A stretch of DNA of 64,000 bases from Haloarcula marismortui ATCC 43049 (GTDB taxonomy: Archaea > Halobacteriota > Halobacteria > Halobacteriales > Haloarculaceae), in contig NC_006396.1 of assembly GCF_000011085.1 (NCBI RefSeq), forward strand, positions 1,054,001 through 1,118,000, in the 5' to 3' direction. The position numbers and the translations under genes were made by a program. The notes beneath the pieces were generated by a model that worked only from the letters and a program-made list of their open reading frames with translations, was not told where the DNA came from and made no database searches. Of the stretch, positions 28,947-64,000 are shown piece after piece. The stretch's first letter is position 1, and the number at the start of each line of letters is the position of its first letter.

Positions 28947-29585
28947 TTACGGGTCGAAGGCGGCCGTCGCGAGTTTCGATTCAACGGCGTTCAGGCGCTG
29001 AGAGAGCGCAGATTTCGAGATACCGAGTGTCGATGCGAGGTCGTCGAGAGTCGTCTGTCTGGGCTGCTGGTAGTAGCCTTCGTCGACCGCGATTATCGCT
29101 GCTTCCCGTTGTTTTGTCGTGAGACAGGCGAGGTCGACAGTCGCAGGGTCCGACTCTGTCTTGTTGTCCTGCCGGGATGTCAGCCGTCGCAGGCGCACTC
29201 GTTCAGCCGCTGGTTGCAACTGCTCGACCAGCTCGCTGATGACGCTCCGGTCTGAGACGTACGTCTCGATAAAAAGTGAGTCACCGTCTACGCGCCGGGT
29301 TCGTGGTACACACCCGACCTCGCTAAACGCCAGACAGAGACAGGCGTCCCCGACCTGATTTGTCGAATGCAGGACCCGCGGGGTACCAGTTTCATCAGAG
29401 ACGGTCATCTCCGCGTGACAGACTCCGTCGTCGATCTGGTTATGAACGTTCTCGATGTCTGCATCCGGATCCGAAAGTGGACACGAACAGTCATCGGGCA
29501 GTTCAATTTCAAACAGAACCTCAATGGTCCGTTCGGAAGCGGTGCCCGTTGTTGTCCCTGTGAGCCCGCTTTCGGATTGGTCCAT
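28947..29585 (-). CDS. dmsR: DmsR-like HTH regulator
   Basis: A 212-residue protein with a bacterio-opsin activator-type helix-turn-helix at the C-terminus (LTTKQREAAIIAVDEGYYQQPRQTTLDDLASTL, then KSALSQRL). Cys82, Cys84 and Cys92 form the same C-x-C-x7-C motif as the NarO-like protein, and Cys33, Cys35 and Cys56 lie upstream. It probably senses redox state and activates the dms operon that follows. A TATA box (CGTATTTAAC, 29611-29620) lies 26-35 nt before the start, giving an almost leaderless mRNA. Confidence 0.82.
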   Translation of the reverse strand: MDQSESGLTGTTTGTASERTIEVLFEIELPDDCSCPLSDPDADIENVHNQIDDGVCHAEMTVSDETGTPRVLHSTNQVGDACLCLAFSEVGCVPRTRRVDGDSLFIETYVSDRSVISELVEQLQPAAERVRLRRLTSRQDNKTESDPATVDLACLTTKQREAAIIAVDEGYYQQPRQTTLDDLASTLGISKSALSQRLNAVESKLATAAFDP

Positions 29586-29821
29586 TCTGTCTGTTCATCT
29601 CCGACGTTCAGTTAAATACGTTTTGTCGATTCTCATCGTAACCGACAGACATCGGCAGGTTTGTCCAGAACGTTCATAGAGAATAGCTTCCTGACGTCAC
29701 GACGGCTCCGAATATGAACTGTGCCACGTCGTGTCTCAGATAGACGGCGTCGGGGCCATGTTCACATGTTGGTGTCACCAGAGACACAAGATAAATGCCG
29801 CCTCCGCCTGATACATCGACA

Positions 29822-55076: not shown

Positions 55077-55373
55077 TTAGGCGGTCAGCGAGTCAATGTG
55101 GCCTTCCGAACGGAGCTGGTCGGCGTCTTGCCCCTTGTAGCGCCATTCGATGTTGGCCTTCTCGTCTTGCCAGTCCCACGGTTCGGCGAGAACGATGTCA
55201 TCCTCGTTAATCCAGGTCCGGAACTTCATCCGACCTGGAATCCGGCCGAGTCGGGTTTCGCCGTCCTCACAGCGAATGCGGACGTGGTTCCCGCCAAGGT
55301 GCTCTGTTACCACTGCAAACATCTCGTCGTTTGTAGGCATGCGGAGATTCCGCCGCCCTGAATCGTCGCTCAC
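55077..55373 (-). CDS. Translation initiation factor aIF-1A
   Basis: A 98-residue OB-fold factor that binds the ribosomal A site and aids start-codon selection. Family core: [44 protein letters not shown], then [23 protein letters not shown]. The GTG at 55373 is chosen because a TATA box (ACTTATACG, about 55396-55404) lies 24-31 nt upstream; the longer ORF extends past that box and cannot be right for such a transcript. The gene faces the rRNA operon promoter region. Confidence 0.93.
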
Positions 55374-55526
55374 AGCATAAATACGGTCGCCTCCCGTATA
55401 AGTCGTTTGAGAGGCGGGATAGCGTGTACCATGGATCCGACACAACGGCCGTACCACGGCAAGAGCTGACCAATAGCTATCGGAAGCAGTGAAACGATAA
55501 GAACGGACTGGCGACAGTGCGTTGAT

Positions 55527-56284: not shown

Positions 56285-57040
56285 TTAGGTAACGGTACGG
56301 ATATCAACCGTTGTGTTGTGGACGACAGCGCGGCTGATGCCTGTACACTGGTACGTGTGTGGTTCCGAGTGGCCCGACCAGTTTGGTAGTTCCTGCTCAA
56401 ATAGACGGTGCCACGCATCCGGGTACGCAGTCTCCGAGACGTTGATCAAGACGGTTGTCGCGGACGGTGGCTTGCCAGCCTAGGGCGAAACGAGCGTCTT
56501 ATTCTGGACAGCAGTCTCGATTGTGACGCGACTCGACGAGGAGAAGTCCGTCTGTCCGTCAAGCGAAAGGACGGAGAGGTATGCACTGCTGCTATCAGGG
56601 GTACACCGGAAACTGGGTTTCCGTGAGACGACCAGTCCCTCCTGCTGGACCCGATACACTGCACCGCTGGTGTAGACGATATCCGTCTCGGAGTCAGTCT
56701 CCCGGATGAACGCTCCGGTCGAGATATTCGTTGACCGTCCGTCAACAGTTACGTTCAGCGTTGACGACCGGATGGAGAGCCCGTGGCCCTGGAGTTTCAT
56801 ACTCGTGGTCCGTCGTGGGGCATCGCCCTGGATGTGGTCATCTGTAGTCTCCGCGAACCCGATCATCGACGTTTCGGCGACATCAGTTGTTGCCCCCTGT
56901 TGGATAGCGTCGAACGCACCGAGCCCACCGAGCGTCACCAGCGCAATGCCAGTGATGATGATACTGAACGTAAGCGTAAACGCAAGCAGATCGGACACGC
57001 CACGGTCGTGACTGTCTGGGATTGACAGTGGCGATGTCAT
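56285..57040 (-). pseudogene. Pilin-like protein gene interrupted by an in-frame TAG
   Basis: The first 186 residues have a pilin-type N-terminus (DRGVSDLLAFTLTFSIIITGIALVTLGG, about 12-39) and a beta-rich remainder, ending VQNKTLVSP before TAG (56480-56482). Without any shift, the same frame runs on for 64 more codons (AGKPPSATTVLINVSETAYP, then DAWHRLFEQELPNWSGHSEP and more) to TAA at 56285-56287. The tail looks like real protein, so the gene seems to have a nonsense codon near its end. Alternatives are read-through, a tolerated truncation or a sequence error. It overlaps its upstream neighbour by ATGA. Confidence 0.7.
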
Positions 57041-57501
57041 CCGCGTGTCACCTTCATGCAGTCGGCCGTCGCATTGTACGAGACGGCTAGTGGCCCGCTG
57101 GAAACGACAGATGGGCAGACATTAGTTTCATTTTCGAATCGGACGACAGCGTACCGATTCAGTCCTGATGCATTCACGTACACGCGTGTGCGCGAGGTAT
57201 CTGGAGAGACCTCGACATTGTACGACTGGTCAGCGATCCGCTCCGGATACGTCGCACGAAACGACACCGTCGAATTGAGGCTCTCAGTGTTGAACGCATC
57301 CAGACGAACCAGGTCGCGCGCGATACCATCGCCGACGTTCTCTAGGGCTTCTTCGGTCACTCGCTCACGCTGTGAATCGACCATCTGGCTCCCGCCGATG
57401 AGGAGACCAGTCACCAGCAGCGACGTGATACCGATAGTGAGCGCCTGCGTGACTGCAGGTGAGACGCCACGGCTGTCGGACAGGAGACGGTCGAGGCTCA
57501 T
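57037..57501 (-). CDS. Pilin-like protein 4 of the pil operon
   Basis: A 154-residue protein with a type IV pilin-type N-terminus: SDSRGVSPAVTQALTIGITSLLVTGLLIGG (about 8-37), a charged stretch then one hydrophobic helix. The rest is predicted beta-rich and external, with two Cys (NVCPSV and ADCMKV) that could form a disulfide. Similar haloarchaeal proteins are named DUF7266, from memory. It overlaps both neighbours by ATGA and is probably a minor pilin or pilus-associated protein. Confidence 0.78.
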   Translation of the reverse strand: MSLDRLLSDSRGVSPAVTQALTIGITSLLVTGLLIGGSQMVDSQRERVTEEALENVGDGIARDLVRLDAFNTESLNSTVSFRATYPERIADQSYNVEVSPDTSRTRVYVNASGLNRYAVVRFENETNVCPSVVSSGPLAVSYNATADCMKVTRG

Positions 57502-58388
57502 CCGTCGTCCACCTCCACAAGGACTGTTCGGTTGTAGCTCGCAGATGGTGTGTCATAGGTCAAGTCGACAGCAGGAACGACGGGATACGGTGCGGTGTCT
57601 CCGGAATCGTAGCTCGTGCCTGGGAAGTTACCGATGGCCGCGAAGCGGTAAGTACCACGTGCGCGGTTTCCCTTCTCAATGCTGACAGTGTACGGTGCGT
57701 CGAGTGTTTCAGTAAACGCCGGGAATGTTCCGGGCGTCCCGCCGATGTCACAGGTCCCGGCGAGGAGGTCGACATCGGCGTCACCGGCCCCTGAACAGGT
57801 AGTCGTCGATCCGGAAGGTGGGGTGACCGCCACCTCCTTATTGCCGGGTTCTGTCACGACCATCTTCCAAGTATCCCCACTGTCGCCTTCCACTTTGACA
57901 ATAAATTCTTGCCCCACTCCAGGGATACGGGTCACTGTCAGATTGAATACGACAGCGCGGTCCACGCTTCGAGCGATATCCCAGTCAACGTTTGATCCCG
58001 TACCGCCGGGTCGATTGAACCGAGATGAGGACGTTTGGTTCACTTCGGTTCCATTCGACGCCGACTCGTTCAGCGTCGCGTTCAGATAGGCCCCCCCGCT
58101 GCCTCCGACGACGCGATTGTGCGTCTCCGTATAGTTCTGAAGCGCGTTCTCGTATCGCGCCTCAAATTCATCGAGGTCATCGCCCCGCGTTTCGGCCGCA
58201 AGCCGTCCGAGATCACGTTCAACGGAGGCTTCGCGGTCAGCCGACCGTTCAATAGTATCCGCACTGCCGGTGGTCGTGATGCCGTCAGTGACAGCGAGAC
58301 TGTGGGCAAACAGTATCGTACTGAACACGACGATAGCGATGGCGACGCCACCGATCAACAGCAGTTGTCCGCGCTCGTTGGCTACCAT
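57498..58388 (-). CDS. Pilin-like protein 3 of the pil operon
   Basis: A 296-residue protein, the largest of the set. The N-terminus is MVANERGQLLLIGGVAIAIVVFSTILFAHSLAV, a short charged start and one long hydrophobic helix. The external part has many Asn-x-Ser/Thr sites (about a dozen), two Cys and the pattern expected of DUF7261-like haloarchaeal proteins (from memory). It overlaps the preceding gene by 7 nt and the next by 4 nt. Confidence 0.78.
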   Translation of the reverse strand: MVANERGQLLLIGGVAIAIVVFSTILFAHSLAVTDGITTTGSADTIERSADREASVERDLGRLAAETRGDDLDEFEARYENALQNYTETHNRVVGGSGGAYLNATLNESASNGTEVNQTSSSRFNRPGGTGSNVDWDIARSVDRAVVFNLTVTRIPGVGQEFIVKVEGDSGDTWKMVVTEPGNKEVAVTPPSGSTTTCSGAGDADVDLLAGTCDIGGTPGTFPAFTETLDAPYTVSIEKGNRARGTYRFAAIGNFPGTSYDSGDTAPYPVVPAVDLTYDTPSASYNRTVLVEVDDG

Positions 58389-58948
58389 ACGACCAGACGC
58401 ACCTCCACGACGTTGTAGACGATAGAGTCAGGCTCCGCGTCGGGAGCAAAATACCCGCCGACCGCCGAGAGAGGCGGGCCGGTACCGCTGCAGTCGCCGA
58501 TTCGGGCAGGCATATTGTCGGTCAGGGTCACCGTTTCGGTTGCGACAGCTGCATCAGCCGGCCGCTCAGCGACGTTCTCATCTGATTCCTGCGAGGCAAG
58601 AACTGTCTGGCGCACGCCTGAATCCGAGTAACTGAAGTAGAGATTGTACTGTTCTCCCTGACGGTCGAAAGTACGGTTCAACATCCGCTCGAACTCGGTT
58701 GAGCTGCCCGTCTGGTTACCGTTGAGTGTCGGTGTGCCGACGCTGTAACACGCCGTCGCGTTGTGCAGCGCGCCGGTTTCTGCCGCCAGTGATAGCGTGT
58801 CGCTTGCGCGGGTTTCCAGTGCCGCGGTTCGTTGCTGGGCGCCGGTCTGGAACGGGCCGGTGTCGACTGCCGACAGGCCGTAAACGGTCGCGGTCACAAC
58901 GACAATAGCCGCGAGAACGCCTTCCAAGGTGTAGGCTTGGCCACGCAT
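58382..58948 (-). CDS. Pilin-like protein 2 of the pil operon
   Basis: A 188-residue protein beginning MRGQAYTLEGVLAAIVVVTATVYGLSAVD, a pilin-type start with Glu at about the fifth position of the hydrophobic helix (TLEGV). Cys pairs in ATACYSV and IGDCSGT may form a disulfide. The ATG at 58948 is used; the longer ORF adds residues that overlap the neighbour. The stop lies inside the next gene. From memory it resembles DUF7288. Confidence 0.78.
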   Translation of the reverse strand: MRGQAYTLEGVLAAIVVVTATVYGLSAVDTGPFQTGAQQRTAALETRASDTLSLAAETGALHNATACYSVGTPTLNGNQTGSSTEFERMLNRTFDRQGEQYNLYFSYSDSGVRQTVLASQESDENVAERPADAAVATETVTLTDNMPARIGDCSGTGPPLSAVGGYFAPDAEPDSIVYNVVEVRLVVW

Positions 58949-58950
58949 CG

Positions 58951-59487
58951 TTACCACACCCTCACGACAAGCCAGCAGACCGGGTCGCACTGGCCGGTTG
59001 CGTTGGTCAGTTTCACTACGCGGGACGCCGTCGCAACGTTGTCTCTATCGGCGACATCAGGCCCCCAAGCGAGCCGCTGGTCGTGGTCATCAACTGCCGG
59101 GTCCCGTGTTCCTGCTTTGAGCGATGACGCGTTGACCACACTTACATTGAGTGTGGCGTTTGTCCGGCGTTGTGTTGCGGTGTCGAGACCGGCACTCGAT
59201 TTCAGGTCGCCAAGCGTTCCGCTGTGCTTGGCTATGTCATTGTTGAGGGACTCGTTGATCCCACCGCTCGTGTTGTATCGAATGAGGTTCCGTGTCCCCT
59301 CAACCGAGTGGTTTTCAACAAGGTACGTCGCCGCTCTGTCCGCAATTGGTTGGTTACGCTGTACGTCTGGGGATTCGTACACGCCGACCGCACTACCCTG
59401 TACGAAGGCCAATACCCCGATTATCGTCACGAGCAGGACACTCACCCCCACGGCGAAGTCCTGCGGTGTTTGTGCTCTTGAATCCAT
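58951..59487 (-). CDS. Pilin-like protein 1 of the pil operon
   Basis: A 178-residue protein starting MDSRAQTPQDFAVGVSVLLVTIIGVLAFVQGS: a polar leader, then one hydrophobic helix as in type IV pilins. The external part has several Asn-x-Ser/Thr sites and a CDPVC pair near the end. ATG at 59487 is preferred to an upstream GTG at 59496. It lies 57 nt after the platform gene and 2 nt before the next, and resembles DUF7287 (from memory). Confidence 0.78.
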   Translation of the reverse strand: MDSRAQTPQDFAVGVSVLLVTIIGVLAFVQGSAVGVYESPDVQRNQPIADRAATYLVENHSVEGTRNLIRYNTSGGINESLNNDIAKHSGTLGDLKSSAGLDTATQRRTNATLNVSVVNASSLKAGTRDPAVDDHDQRLAWGPDVADRDNVATASRVVKLTNATGQCDPVCWLVVRVW

Positions 59488-59544
59488 ATCCCACACACCC
59501 TATTTATTATCTGATACGTCCGCTGTCGAACCGCGAGTGAGGCG

Positions 59545-61581
59545 CTAACCCACGGCGATCCACACCACCAGTGCAATCGTCGACAGGACGACTGCAAACT
59601 TGACGCCTGCGACGAGCTTCACTTCCCGAATGTAGCCGGCGATAAACGACGACAGCAACGCCTGCAGCGTCACTGCGTGGAAGAACAGCATCGACAGCAG
59701 TTCCGTGTCGACGCTGCCGCCGAAGCCGCCACCGGGCGCGCTCGAGCTGCTTGACCCGGAGGCCTGCGTCGCCAGCCCCGACATCACATCAAGGAACTGT
59801 GTCTTTAGCAACGCCATCACGCCGAGCAGCGTCAGGTAGGTCATCAGGATGATGACCGTCTGCATCCGCGTCCGGGATTTGCGCTCCCGTTCGATGTCGT
59901 CCTGATTCTCCGAGGCCTGCGCGGCCGTCGAGAGCACGTCCTGAATCTGGCTGGAGGCTTCCTGTGCCTCCGCGATGAGCTTGACCGTCCGCGCCAGTCG
60001 TGGGACGTTGTACTTGTTGTTGAATTCTCGAAGCGCGTCTTTCAGGCTCGTTCCGTAGTTGACCTTTGCGTGGATGGTCTCGAACTCGTCGGAAAGCTTT
60101 CCGGAAGACGTCTCGGAGACCACCTTGACCGACTCTAGCAACGTCATCCCGGTGTCGTTGGCCGATGCAAGCTTCCGGAGGTTTTCCGAGAGTTTCCCGA
60201 TGATTGCCTTCCGCGAGCGCTGGTTCCACTCGTAGAAGATCATCAGCGGGATGAAGTTGAGGTACATCGGGACGTACACCCAGAAGAACGTCGAACGAAC
60301 CGGGACAGCGATCATCCCGTCTAGCGATAACGGGGCCCAGCCGATGACGATAGCCGCGACAACAGCGAGAATTGACAGTGGAACCGTCAGCCACAGCACC
60401 AACAGGGGATGGTCACGGAAGAACAGGTCAGGCCGTGTGAGGATGGCGAGAAGTTCGTGAGTTCCCTCCCGACTCTTGATCCGGTCGAAGACGCTGTAGG
60501 TCCCCGTGTAGCTCTCGATGAGCCCGAGGTTGAACACGCCGACGCCCTCATCGACGACGAGTTCCTTCTCGCCGGGGCTCGAGCGCAGATAGCCGTCCCC
60601 GATTGAGTCCTGCGTGACAGTCGAAACGAGGACGAGAAAGCCCAGGCCGGTCAGGGGAATCAACCCGTACACAGTCCCATAAATAAGCGACTGCTGTGCG
60701 TTCCCCATCATCGACATGATGACCAGAATGATAATGAGAAGCAGTGGAAACAGCGAGAGCGTCATGTACATCTCGCCGAACAGCTCCAGCGTCTCCAGCA
60801 TCTTCTCCTGTTCCTGCCGGGCGGTTCGCATGTGCTTTTCCTTCTGGTCTTCGAGGAAAGAGGTCATGTCACCGCCGGAATTGATGATAGAAAGCATATC
60901 CGTCAGGAACTGCGACAGTTCGTCTGAGGGCGTCTGAAGCGCCTGGTTCCGGACGGCGGTTCGGTAGTCGGTATCGAAATACTCCGTCTCCAGTACGATG
61001 GACTGGAACTCTTTTGCGACTTCACCGTACGTGTCTTCGGCTTTCCCCATCGACTGCAGGATTTCGAGTTGGTTGAGCCCACCCACGGACAGCGCATACA
61101 TGAACGAAATTGAGTCGGACAACAAGACGTTGATTTCGCGCTCACGCGCGCTCGAACGGAAATACGGAATCGAGACCAGCGACCCGAAGCCGATACCGAA
61201 CCCGATGGCACCGAAGACGAAGCCGGTCACGATGACGAGGAAGGGGAGTTTCAGCACGGCGAGAATCTCTGAGACGCTCTCAGACACTGGAATCCCGATG
61301 AGCGTCGGCGCTTCTCCACTGGCAAACAACAACTGGACCAGCAGATACCCGAGGAACGTGCCGACGAGCCACAGCGCTAGACCCGCGATGACACCGACCG
61401 CGAGTGCACGTGCGAGGAACATCTCTACGTTGTCGGCCATCCGGGCCTCCGCGAGTTTGTTCTCGACACTGCTGACGAAGTCGCCCTCGTCGTCGAACAC
61501 CATCTGGTACGCCGGGTAGAACGTGTCGCCGAGCGCACCGCCGCTGCCGACCTGTTGCTGACCCGGTGTGTCGAGGCTCAT
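59545..61581 (-). CDS. pilC: PilC/TadC-type pilus platform protein
   Basis: A 678-residue membrane protein with two T2SF (GspF) domains: about 130-320 (SDSISFMYALSVGGLNQLEILQSMGK) and about 440-620 (LRKLASANDTGMTLLESVKVVSE, then FNNKYNVPRLARTVKLIAEAQEASSQIQDVL). About ten hydrophobic segments are seen. It forms the inner-membrane base on which pilins are assembled, working with the ATPase encoded upstream. The start overlaps the ATPase stop by ATGA. Confidence 0.92.
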   Translation of the reverse strand: MSLDTPGQQQVGSGGALGDTFYPAYQMVFDDEGDFVSSVENKLAEARMADNVEMFLARALAVGVIAGLALWLVGTFLGYLLVQLLFASGEAPTLIGIPVSESVSEILAVLKLPFLVIVTGFVFGAIGFGIGFGSLVSIPYFRSSAREREINVLLSDSISFMYALSVGGLNQLEILQSMGKAEDTYGEVAKEFQSIVLETEYFDTDYRTAVRNQALQTPSDELSQFLTDMLSIINSGGDMTSFLEDQKEKHMRTARQEQEKMLETLELFGEMYMTLSLFPLLLIIILVIMSMMGNAQQSLIYGTVYGLIPLTGLGFLVLVSTVTQDSIGDGYLRSSPGEKELVVDEGVGVFNLGLIESYTGTYSVFDRIKSREGTHELLAILTRPDLFFRDHPLLVLWLTVPLSILAVVAAIVIGWAPLSLDGMIAVPVRSTFFWVYVPMYLNFIPLMIFYEWNQRSRKAIIGKLSENLRKLASANDTGMTLLESVKVVSETSSGKLSDEFETIHAKVNYGTSLKDALREFNNKYNVPRLARTVKLIAEAQEASSQIQDVLSTAAQASENQDDIERERKSRTRMQTVIILMTYLTLLGVMALLKTQFLDVMSGLATQASGSSSSSAPGGGFGGSVDTELLSMLFFHAVTLQALLSSFIAGYIREVKLVAGVKFAVVLSTIALVVWIAVG

Positions 61582-64000
61582 TCGCTATCTGCCTCCGCAC
61601 CGGCCTTCGGAACGAACTGACCGAAGTCGATGCTGTCTTCGTCAGCGCTCTCCTCGGAATCGTCCATCAACGCTGAGACAATGTCCGGCGTTTCGCGGCT
61701 CTTGTAGGTGTTAAACAGTGGCTGGGCGTTGTCAAGCACCTGCTTTGTCTCCTCGACCATTTCCGGCGGCGCGTCCGGCCGGGGCACCATTTCCTCTTTT
61801 TCGGGGTCGATATCGATCTTGACAGATTCCATCTCTCGGAGGTCCTCGAGTGACAGTTCGAGCTGGTCGTTGGCGATGAGCGTGAGAATGGTGTCGGGGT
61901 CATTAATAAACGCCTGGATGGTCGCCGCAACCTGCGTGTAGGTGTTGAGCCCCTTCTCGATGAGATATGCGAGGACGACTTTGCGCTTGAACAGCTCTTC
62001 GTCGAGTTTTTCTTGGGTCCACCCACGGTCGAACTTGATCTCTTCAAGCGTGTTCGAGTTCCCCATCTGGATGTACTCATCCGTCTCGGCGCGCCACTCG
62101 TACACGTCCCGGACGTTGATCTCATCGTTCTCCGCGGAGTACTCGTTAATTTCGGTCAGGGACTTGTTTCGGCGAACCTTGTTGCCGTCGACCCGCGTCT
62201 GGGTCTGAATCGACACCAGATCAAGCGCGGTAAACAGCGTCTTCGAGACGTTGATCGGTTCGGTGGTGAACCGCTTGATGACCTCACCGACCGAGTCGGC
62301 GTGGAACGTGGTGTAGGTGGTGTGCCCGGTCGACATGACCTGGAACAGCGTCCGACCTTCTTCACCGCGGATCTCACCCATGACAATGTAGTCCGGACGC
62401 TGACGGAGTGCGGCTTCCAGCAGGTCGAACTCGTCGACGTCACCCTTGTCGTCTTCACCAAAGGAAGGGCGCGTAACGCTTGCCACCCAGTTTCGCTGTG
62501 GCAGTTCGACCTCACGCGTGTCCTCAATGGAGACGATCTTGGAGTTCGATGGGATGAACAGCGAGACGGCGTTCAGGCTTGTCGTCTTCCCCGAGGCAGT
62601 ACCGCCGGCGAAGATGAGGCTCTTGTTGTTCTCGATACAGAGCCAGAGGAACGCCATCTCGTCCAGCGAAAACGTGTTCCAGTTGATGAGGTCGATAGGG
62701 GTAAAGGGGACGTCCTTGAACTGCCGGATAGTGTAGTTCGTCCCGTGGTCGGACACTTCCCTACCCAGTGTCAGCTGGGCACGCGACCCGTCCGGGAGCG
62801 TCGCATCGACCTGTGGCTGGCGCTTCGAGATACCCTTCCCGGACCGCTGTGCGAGCTTCACGACGAAGTCGTCGAGTTCCCCTTTTCCGTGTTCGACGTT
62901 CGAGATGATCTGCTCGTAGTCAGTGTGATAGACGAACACCCGGGAGTTGTACCCGTCACAGGAGATATCTTCCACGTTGATATCGTGTTTGACGCCGTCG
63001 ATGCGGGCGTAGCCGACGAAGTCCCGCTTGAGCATATACAGCAGCTTCTCGACCTGATACTCGTTTAGCTTCGGTTCGTCATCTTCAAGAATAGCCGGTT
63101 CGGGACGTGTCGAAATGCCGGAGAGTTGTCCCGTCGTTTCACTTTGTGTTTCCTCGTCCAGCCCGAACAGTTCCTTGACCTGTCCGAGAACGCTCTCTTC
63201 ACCACGGCTGGAAACTGAGCCGTCGTAGAGGTCATACCGCGAGAGGAGCTGTTCGGCCTCCCGCTGGATGACCTGTGCCCGGTCAGCATCAGTCCCCTGA
63301 ACGATCACGTCGTCCTCGGAGTACTTGATCGCGGTCTTGAGTTTGCCCGAGAGGAACTCTCGAAGGTCGATCTCAATATCGGTGAGATACGGCTCAATGA
63401 CGTAGTACTTCTTCTCGTTCTCTTTCCGTGAGTGGAAGATGATAACGCAGGCGTAGGGTTTGTTGACCCAGTACCGTTCCAGTTCGTTGAAATGTGATTT
63501 CTTCGACTGGGGAACAGCTTTTTCGAGGTCGTAGCGGTTGACGACGGTCGTGTGGCCGTCCCGTGTCGAGAAGAACTCGTCTTCGTCCAGCTCCGGGTTC
63601 ACGTCAACGGTGTTTTCATCGACGTACTCGTGCAGTTCACTGGCGATGTCTTCAGCGGCGGACAGTTTGTTTTCCGTGTGTTCAGAGTCGAAGTGCAGAT
63701 ACTCACTTGCATCAAACGGAATAACTTCGCCGTCACTGTCACGGGGGAGACTGCCGTCCTCGTAATAGTACTCCTGTTTGAAATGCTCCCACGTGTAGAT
63801 GTCTTTCGCGACTGGTGTCGTAGTTGGGTCGAGATACTCTTCGAACGGCGCTTGCAGTGTTTTCCCGGCACTCGCCGCGTCTTCGAGTCGCTGACTGAGT
63901 TCTCTCGGCTCGAAGCCGAGGTACACGCTCCGGTCGAACCGCCCCCCATCGTGTACCTCTCGCCGGAGATCATCCCACGTGTATTCGCCGACCCGTACAG
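61578..64000 (-). CDS. pilB: PilB-type secretion ATPase (5' end outside window)
   Basis: At least 782 residues plus an upstream portion that runs off the window. The C-terminal half is a VirB11/GspE-type ATPase: Walker A GGTASGKTTSLN, Walker B DYIVMGEIRGEEGRTLFQ, and the His box STGHTTYTTFHAD. A GTG at 63926 is not the true start: the frame stays open to position 64000, with GEYTWDDLRREVHDGG, which echoes YTWEHFKQEYYYEDG about 50 residues later. The protein powers pilin assembly through PilC. It heads the operon seen here. Confidence 0.93.
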   Translation of the reverse strand, partial: VRVGEYTWDDLRREVHDGGRFDRSVYLGFEPRELSQRLEDAASAGKTLQAPFEEYLDPTTTPVAKDIYTWEHFKQEYYYEDGSLPRDSDGEVIPFDASEYLHFDSEHTENKLSAAEDIASELHEYVDENTVDVNPELDEDEFFSTRDGHTTVVNRYDLEKAVPQSKKSHFNELERYWVNKPYACVIIFHSRKENEKKYYVIEPYLTDIEIDLREFLSGKLKTAIKYSEDDVIVQGTDADRAQVIQREAEQLLSRYDLYDGSVSSRGEESVLGQVKELFGLDEETQSETTGQLSGISTRPEPAILEDDEPKLNEYQVEKLLYMLKRDFVGYARIDGVKHDINVEDISCDGYNSRVFVYHTDYEQIISNVEHGKGELDDFVVKLAQRSGKGISKRQPQVDATLPDGSRAQLTLGREVSDHGTNYTIRQFKDVPFTPIDLINWNTFSLDEMAFLWLCIENNKSLIFAGGTASGKTTSLNAVSLFIPSNSKIVSIEDTREVELPQRNWVASVTRPSFGEDDKGDVDEFDLLEAALRQRPDYIVMGEIRGEEGRTLFQVMSTGHTTYTTFHADSVGEVIKRFTTEPINVSKTLFTALDLVSIQTQTRVDGNKVRRNKSLTEINEYSAENDEINVRDVYEWRAETDEYIQMGNSNTLEEIKFDRGWTQEKLDEELFKRKVVLAYLIEKGLNTYTQVAATIQAFINDPDTILTLIANDQLELSLEDLREMESVKIDIDPEKEEMVPRPDAPPEMVEETKQVLDNAQPLFNTYKSRETPDIVSALMDDSEESADEDSIDFGQFVPKAGAEADSE

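Follow-up and report, generated by a model that had tools for sequence, protein, structure and literature searches.

Does an in-frame TAG within a pilin-like gene of the Dead Sea archaeon Haloarcula marismortui ATCC 43049 mark the natural end of a short protein, or does it interrupt a longer one, and if so, is the interruption a mutation, a recoded codon or an error in the sequence? We addressed this question in the window, that is, the whole stretch of 64,000 nucleotides analyzed (C8:1054001-1118000), part of a 9-contig genome with a total of 4,274,642 bases.

An interrupted frame at the end of a pilus-type operon

The frame lies on the minus strand, starting with an ATG at 57040 and running for 186 codons to the TAG and for 64 more to a TAA, so that 251 codons are split by the TAG at codon 187 (56480-56482). 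The front comprises codons 1-186 (56483-57040) and the tail codons 188-251 (56288-56479), followed by the TAA at 56285-56287, which we consider the original stop and whose position matches that of the stop in the nearest orthologues. All coordinates, residue counts and stops given for this frame in the preliminary description were exact. The N-terminus of the product, RGVSDLLAFTLTFSIIITGIALVTLG, is similar in sequence to the RAVS/DAVS sites listed for the pilins of H. volcanii (PMC4371748), and may be a signal of the archaeal type IV pilin kind.

Regarding the protein family, the front alone matches most of the Pfam domain DUF7289 (PF23960), with an E-value of 5.8e-28 and 98.5 bits, the curated cut-off being 27 bits. 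The match covers profile positions 1-171 of 238; hence, the product ends at position 171 and the domain is not full-length. When the whole protein was searched with an X at the stop, the match extended over positions 1-208 (5.2e-35), while an intact orthologue (L031) gave positions 1-231 (8e-38). The same genome contains five further matches to DUF7289, all of them without a stop, and the stop after profile position 171 is thus peculiar to the interrupted copy among the matches of this genome.

Upstream of the interrupted gene, and also on the minus strand, we found a DUF7266 gene (57037-57501), whose stop shares an ATGA with the start codon of the interrupted gene, a DUF7261-like gene that falls below the Pfam cut-off (57498-58388), a DUF7288 gene (58382-58990), a DUF7287 gene (58951-59496), a gene for a T2SSF type II/IV secretion platform protein, PilC/ArlJ-like (59545-61581), and a gene for a PilB-type ATPase (61578-64000), which extends past the window end. 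The ATPase has a T2SSE domain along with a PilB3_C domain above the cut-off, with PilB3_N remaining below it. As judged from its gene content, with both a PilB-type ATPase and a PilC-type platform protein present, the cluster is an archaeal type IV pilus operon of the PilB3/PilC type. It resembles the PilB3-PilC3 operon of Haloferax volcanii in having an ATPase with PilB3_C, then T2SSF, then small pilin-like genes, but differs from it by the interrupted last gene, the likeness being one of kind. In H. volcanii, PilB3 and PilC3 are required for PilA pili (PMC4371748). The pilin-like gene had been described as the last of its operon and this holds; the next gene on the same strand (55077-55457), which by reading of its sequence appears to encode an aIF-1A-like protein, lies 827 bases downstream.

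Within this cluster, the DUF7261-like gene stands apart in its divergence. Its identity to the counterpart in one congener (G005) is 67%, while most flanking operon genes show 93-99%, and the two congeners G005 and G012 share 61% identity in this gene. From these low identities, we read it as a fast-evolving or exchanged pilin-like gene.

The tail beyond the stop in related proteins

The preliminary description had taken the openness of the 64 codons past the TAG, in a region held to be poor in A and T, as a sign of a real tail. This argument proved weak on both counts: with the base composition of this region, 64 codons would stay open by chance in about 9% of cases, and the locus, with around 57% GC, lies where the window is less GC-rich, its initial 50 kb ranging from 58 to 71%. 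So, in order to evaluate the tail by homology, we searched 32 Haloarcula genomes (E <= 1e-30) and obtained 22 orthologues besides the query genome's own, 40-93% identical to it. All 22 align across the TAG site as one protein, up to residue 249-251, none contains an internal stop, and they are uninterrupted proteins of about 235-260 residues with stops at codon 234-252, counted from the start of the match. Front and tail, which the preliminary description had proposed to search as one protein in related haloarchaea, indeed align as such over residues 1-251. An ending near residue 186, which had been named as the observation that would show the tail to be accidental, was found in none of the 22 orthologues. 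In addition, the tail alone gives a weak match to the C-terminal part of DUF7289 (positions 179-235 of 238, E = 0.011).

According to these alignments, the 64-codon tail is genuine protein sequence and forms the conserved C-terminal portion of the interrupted protein, and it is this homology, not the openness of the frame, that places it above chance. The idea that the tail is open by accident, and that the protein naturally has 186 residues, could draw on the 9% chance of such a run, but has next to no probability when the tail is present, in frame and conserved in every orthologue, and we rejected it on these grounds.

The conservation of the tail is also visible at the level of selection. 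Of the tail's differences from the sister-species copy L002, 19 are synonymous and 3 nonsynonymous (dN/dS of 0.036); for L003, the counts are 17 and 5 (dN/dS of 0.072). In comparison with these sisters, the tail is under what reads as strong purifying selection, although such low values are equally expected if the full-length protein is still made, and carry no power to discriminate with so young a stop.

The full-length protein contains two cysteines, one on each side of the TAG. Cys146 (codon at 56603-56605), before the stop, is a cysteine in 26 of the 29 aligned relatives, and Cys232 (56345-56347), which is absent from the truncated product, in all 29. This pattern suggests that Cys232 takes part in a disulfide, with Cys146 as its probable partner in most members of the family. 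The three homologues without Cys146 (L025, L029 and L030) have a second cysteine near the equivalent of Cys232, which suggests a shifted disulfide within the DUF7289 family. A structure predicted for an intact orthologue together with five relatives reached a mean pLDDT of 29.9, too poor to be used.

The base change at codon 187 and how it is decoded

At the position equivalent to codon 187, the 11 nearest orthologues carry CAG (9 of 11) or CGG (2 of 11), and the next three carry GGA, CGT and AAG. Because the nearest relatives have CAG or CGG, the TAG is best explained as a C-to-T nonsense change specific to the query genome. The alignment shows the nonsense change in the deposited sequence; that translation stops there, with loss of function, is what we infer from it. 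Three explanations had been offered initially (a recent nonsense mutation, read-through of the TAG or a sequencing error), and among them a genome-specific nonsense change fits best. We estimate at about 0.83 the probability that a real mutation truncates the pilin-like protein.

We polarised the substitutions on the query genome's own branch with three species, leaving out the stop codon. The own branch has 27 synonymous and 10 nonsynonymous changes, similar to the 27:8 and 24:9 of the sisters, and we saw neither an excess of amino-acid changes nor a frameshift on it. Hence, the stop looks young. Relaxed selection on the own branch was considered as well and no sign of it was seen, in a test that is low-powered for a young stop. 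Two changes within the tail, S198L and S219P, replace a Ser that all or almost all of the 14 nearest orthologues carry; two changes are insufficient to claim relaxation. Taken together with the intact relatives, the gene resembles young prokaryotic pseudogenes created by one nonsense change, which likewise have one stop, no other decay and intact copies in all relatives.

One could argue that the TAG is read through, by a suppressor tRNA, pyrrolysine or a programmed event, to give the full-length protein, since the frame past it is open and conserved. We consider this very improbable. TAG is the stop of about a fifth of the window frames compared, and within the operon itself TAG terminates the T2SSF and DUF7288 genes, at positions shared with a congener, which argues that TAG is a normal stop here. 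No relative has a TAG at codon 187, so there is no conserved read-through signal. Screening of the whole genome revealed no pyrrolysyl-tRNA synthetase (PylS) above the family cut-off, and the sub-threshold matches resemble those found in most control genomes. Of the 46 tRNA matches of the genome, ARAGORN assigned a type to 44 under standard settings and, once an intron was allowed, to another (L058), as Arg(TCT); none of these 45 has a CUA anticodon. With neither PylS above the cut-off nor a CUA tRNA found, pyrrolysine and an amber suppressor were both rejected.

The one tRNA match that ARAGORN gave no type, even with introns allowed, is a tRNA-like gene whose anticodon arm carries an intron-like insert (L085, G000:C8:984958-985059), and its loop region presents no obvious CUA.

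The locus shares with the pyrrolysine decoding of UAG in Methanosarcina and relatives an in-frame UAG with a conserved continuation, but differs from it in that no PylS above the cut-off and no CUA tRNA were found, and in the Gln or Arg codons of its relatives. Moreover, a review of recoding names solely selenocysteine and pyrrolysine as read-through demonstrated in archaea (PMC8211752). A context-dependent, partial read-through that yields both the short and the full-length pilin-like protein, in a haloarchaeon without pyrrolysine, has a slighter chance still. We regard the gene as an ordinary nonsense allele; nothing points to a novel kind of decoding.

A further explanation for the TAG is a mistake in the deposited sequence or its assembly, the true gene being intact. 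One base from one assembly does not tell mutation and error apart, and the lack of visible decay past the stop agrees with both. The base adjoining the TAG, the third of codon 186, is also unique to the query genome (CCC, vs CCA in the 11 nearest orthologues); given 18 unique positions in 753, two adjacent ones have a chance of around 4-5%, which may be a mild hint of a two-base mutation or of a local misread. Against an error, the change is a plain transition, and the other bases found only in this genome are spread along the gene as its branch length predicts. In finished genomes, substitution errors are rare relative to real nonsense alleles.

Nor did we detect a clear excess of interrupted genes in the rest of the window. 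Comparing its approximately 50 conserved genes with two congeners, the pilin-like gene was the sole clear interruption, and the other interrupted frames that had been flagged in the window were mostly shadow frames of longer genes. We found no paper that deals with errors in the published sequence of H. marismortui. On balance, a sequence error is an unlikely explanation. Sequences exist for two further strains of this species (PMC12189638, PMC3404096).

A second candidate for an interrupted gene, at 28950-29681 on the minus strand, was discarded: the gene has a plausible start of its own (MDQSESG) after the inner stop, which is therefore not a break. At this locus, the frame of the congener is open further upstream, and the start in the window copy is probably further downstream.

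Probable consequences for the pilin-like protein

The truncating mutation can be pictured as follows. In the DUF7289 pilin-like gene that ends the pilus operon, a C-to-T change would have converted the glutamine codon 187 from CAG to TAG. Translation most likely halts at this TAG, giving a protein of 186 residues that lacks the C-terminal 64. Judging from the conserved cysteines, Cys146, the one cysteine retained in the short product, would be left unpaired, and this product probably fails to fold or assemble properly. The gene would then be a young pseudogene or an allele of reduced function.

Alternatively, the nonsense change could be real and the short protein functional, a variant favored by selection in this strain, for instance through an altered pilus or the loss of a virus receptor. 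Pilin-like proteins do vary between strains, as seen for the DUF7261-like gene next to its well-conserved neighbors, and single mutations commonly remove or alter surface appendages. Still, no sampled homologue is naturally so short and the conserved Cys232 is gone, which makes such a variant highly unlikely.

The preferred reading, a real truncating mutation, matters mainly for annotators and for users of the strain. For annotation, the 186-residue protein should be taken as a truncated product that has lost about a quarter of the protein, and not as a pilin that is short by nature. Should the mutation be real, the sequenced strain, which is in common laboratory use, may lack a pilus component or have an altered one, which would be relevant to studies of adhesion and biofilm formation.
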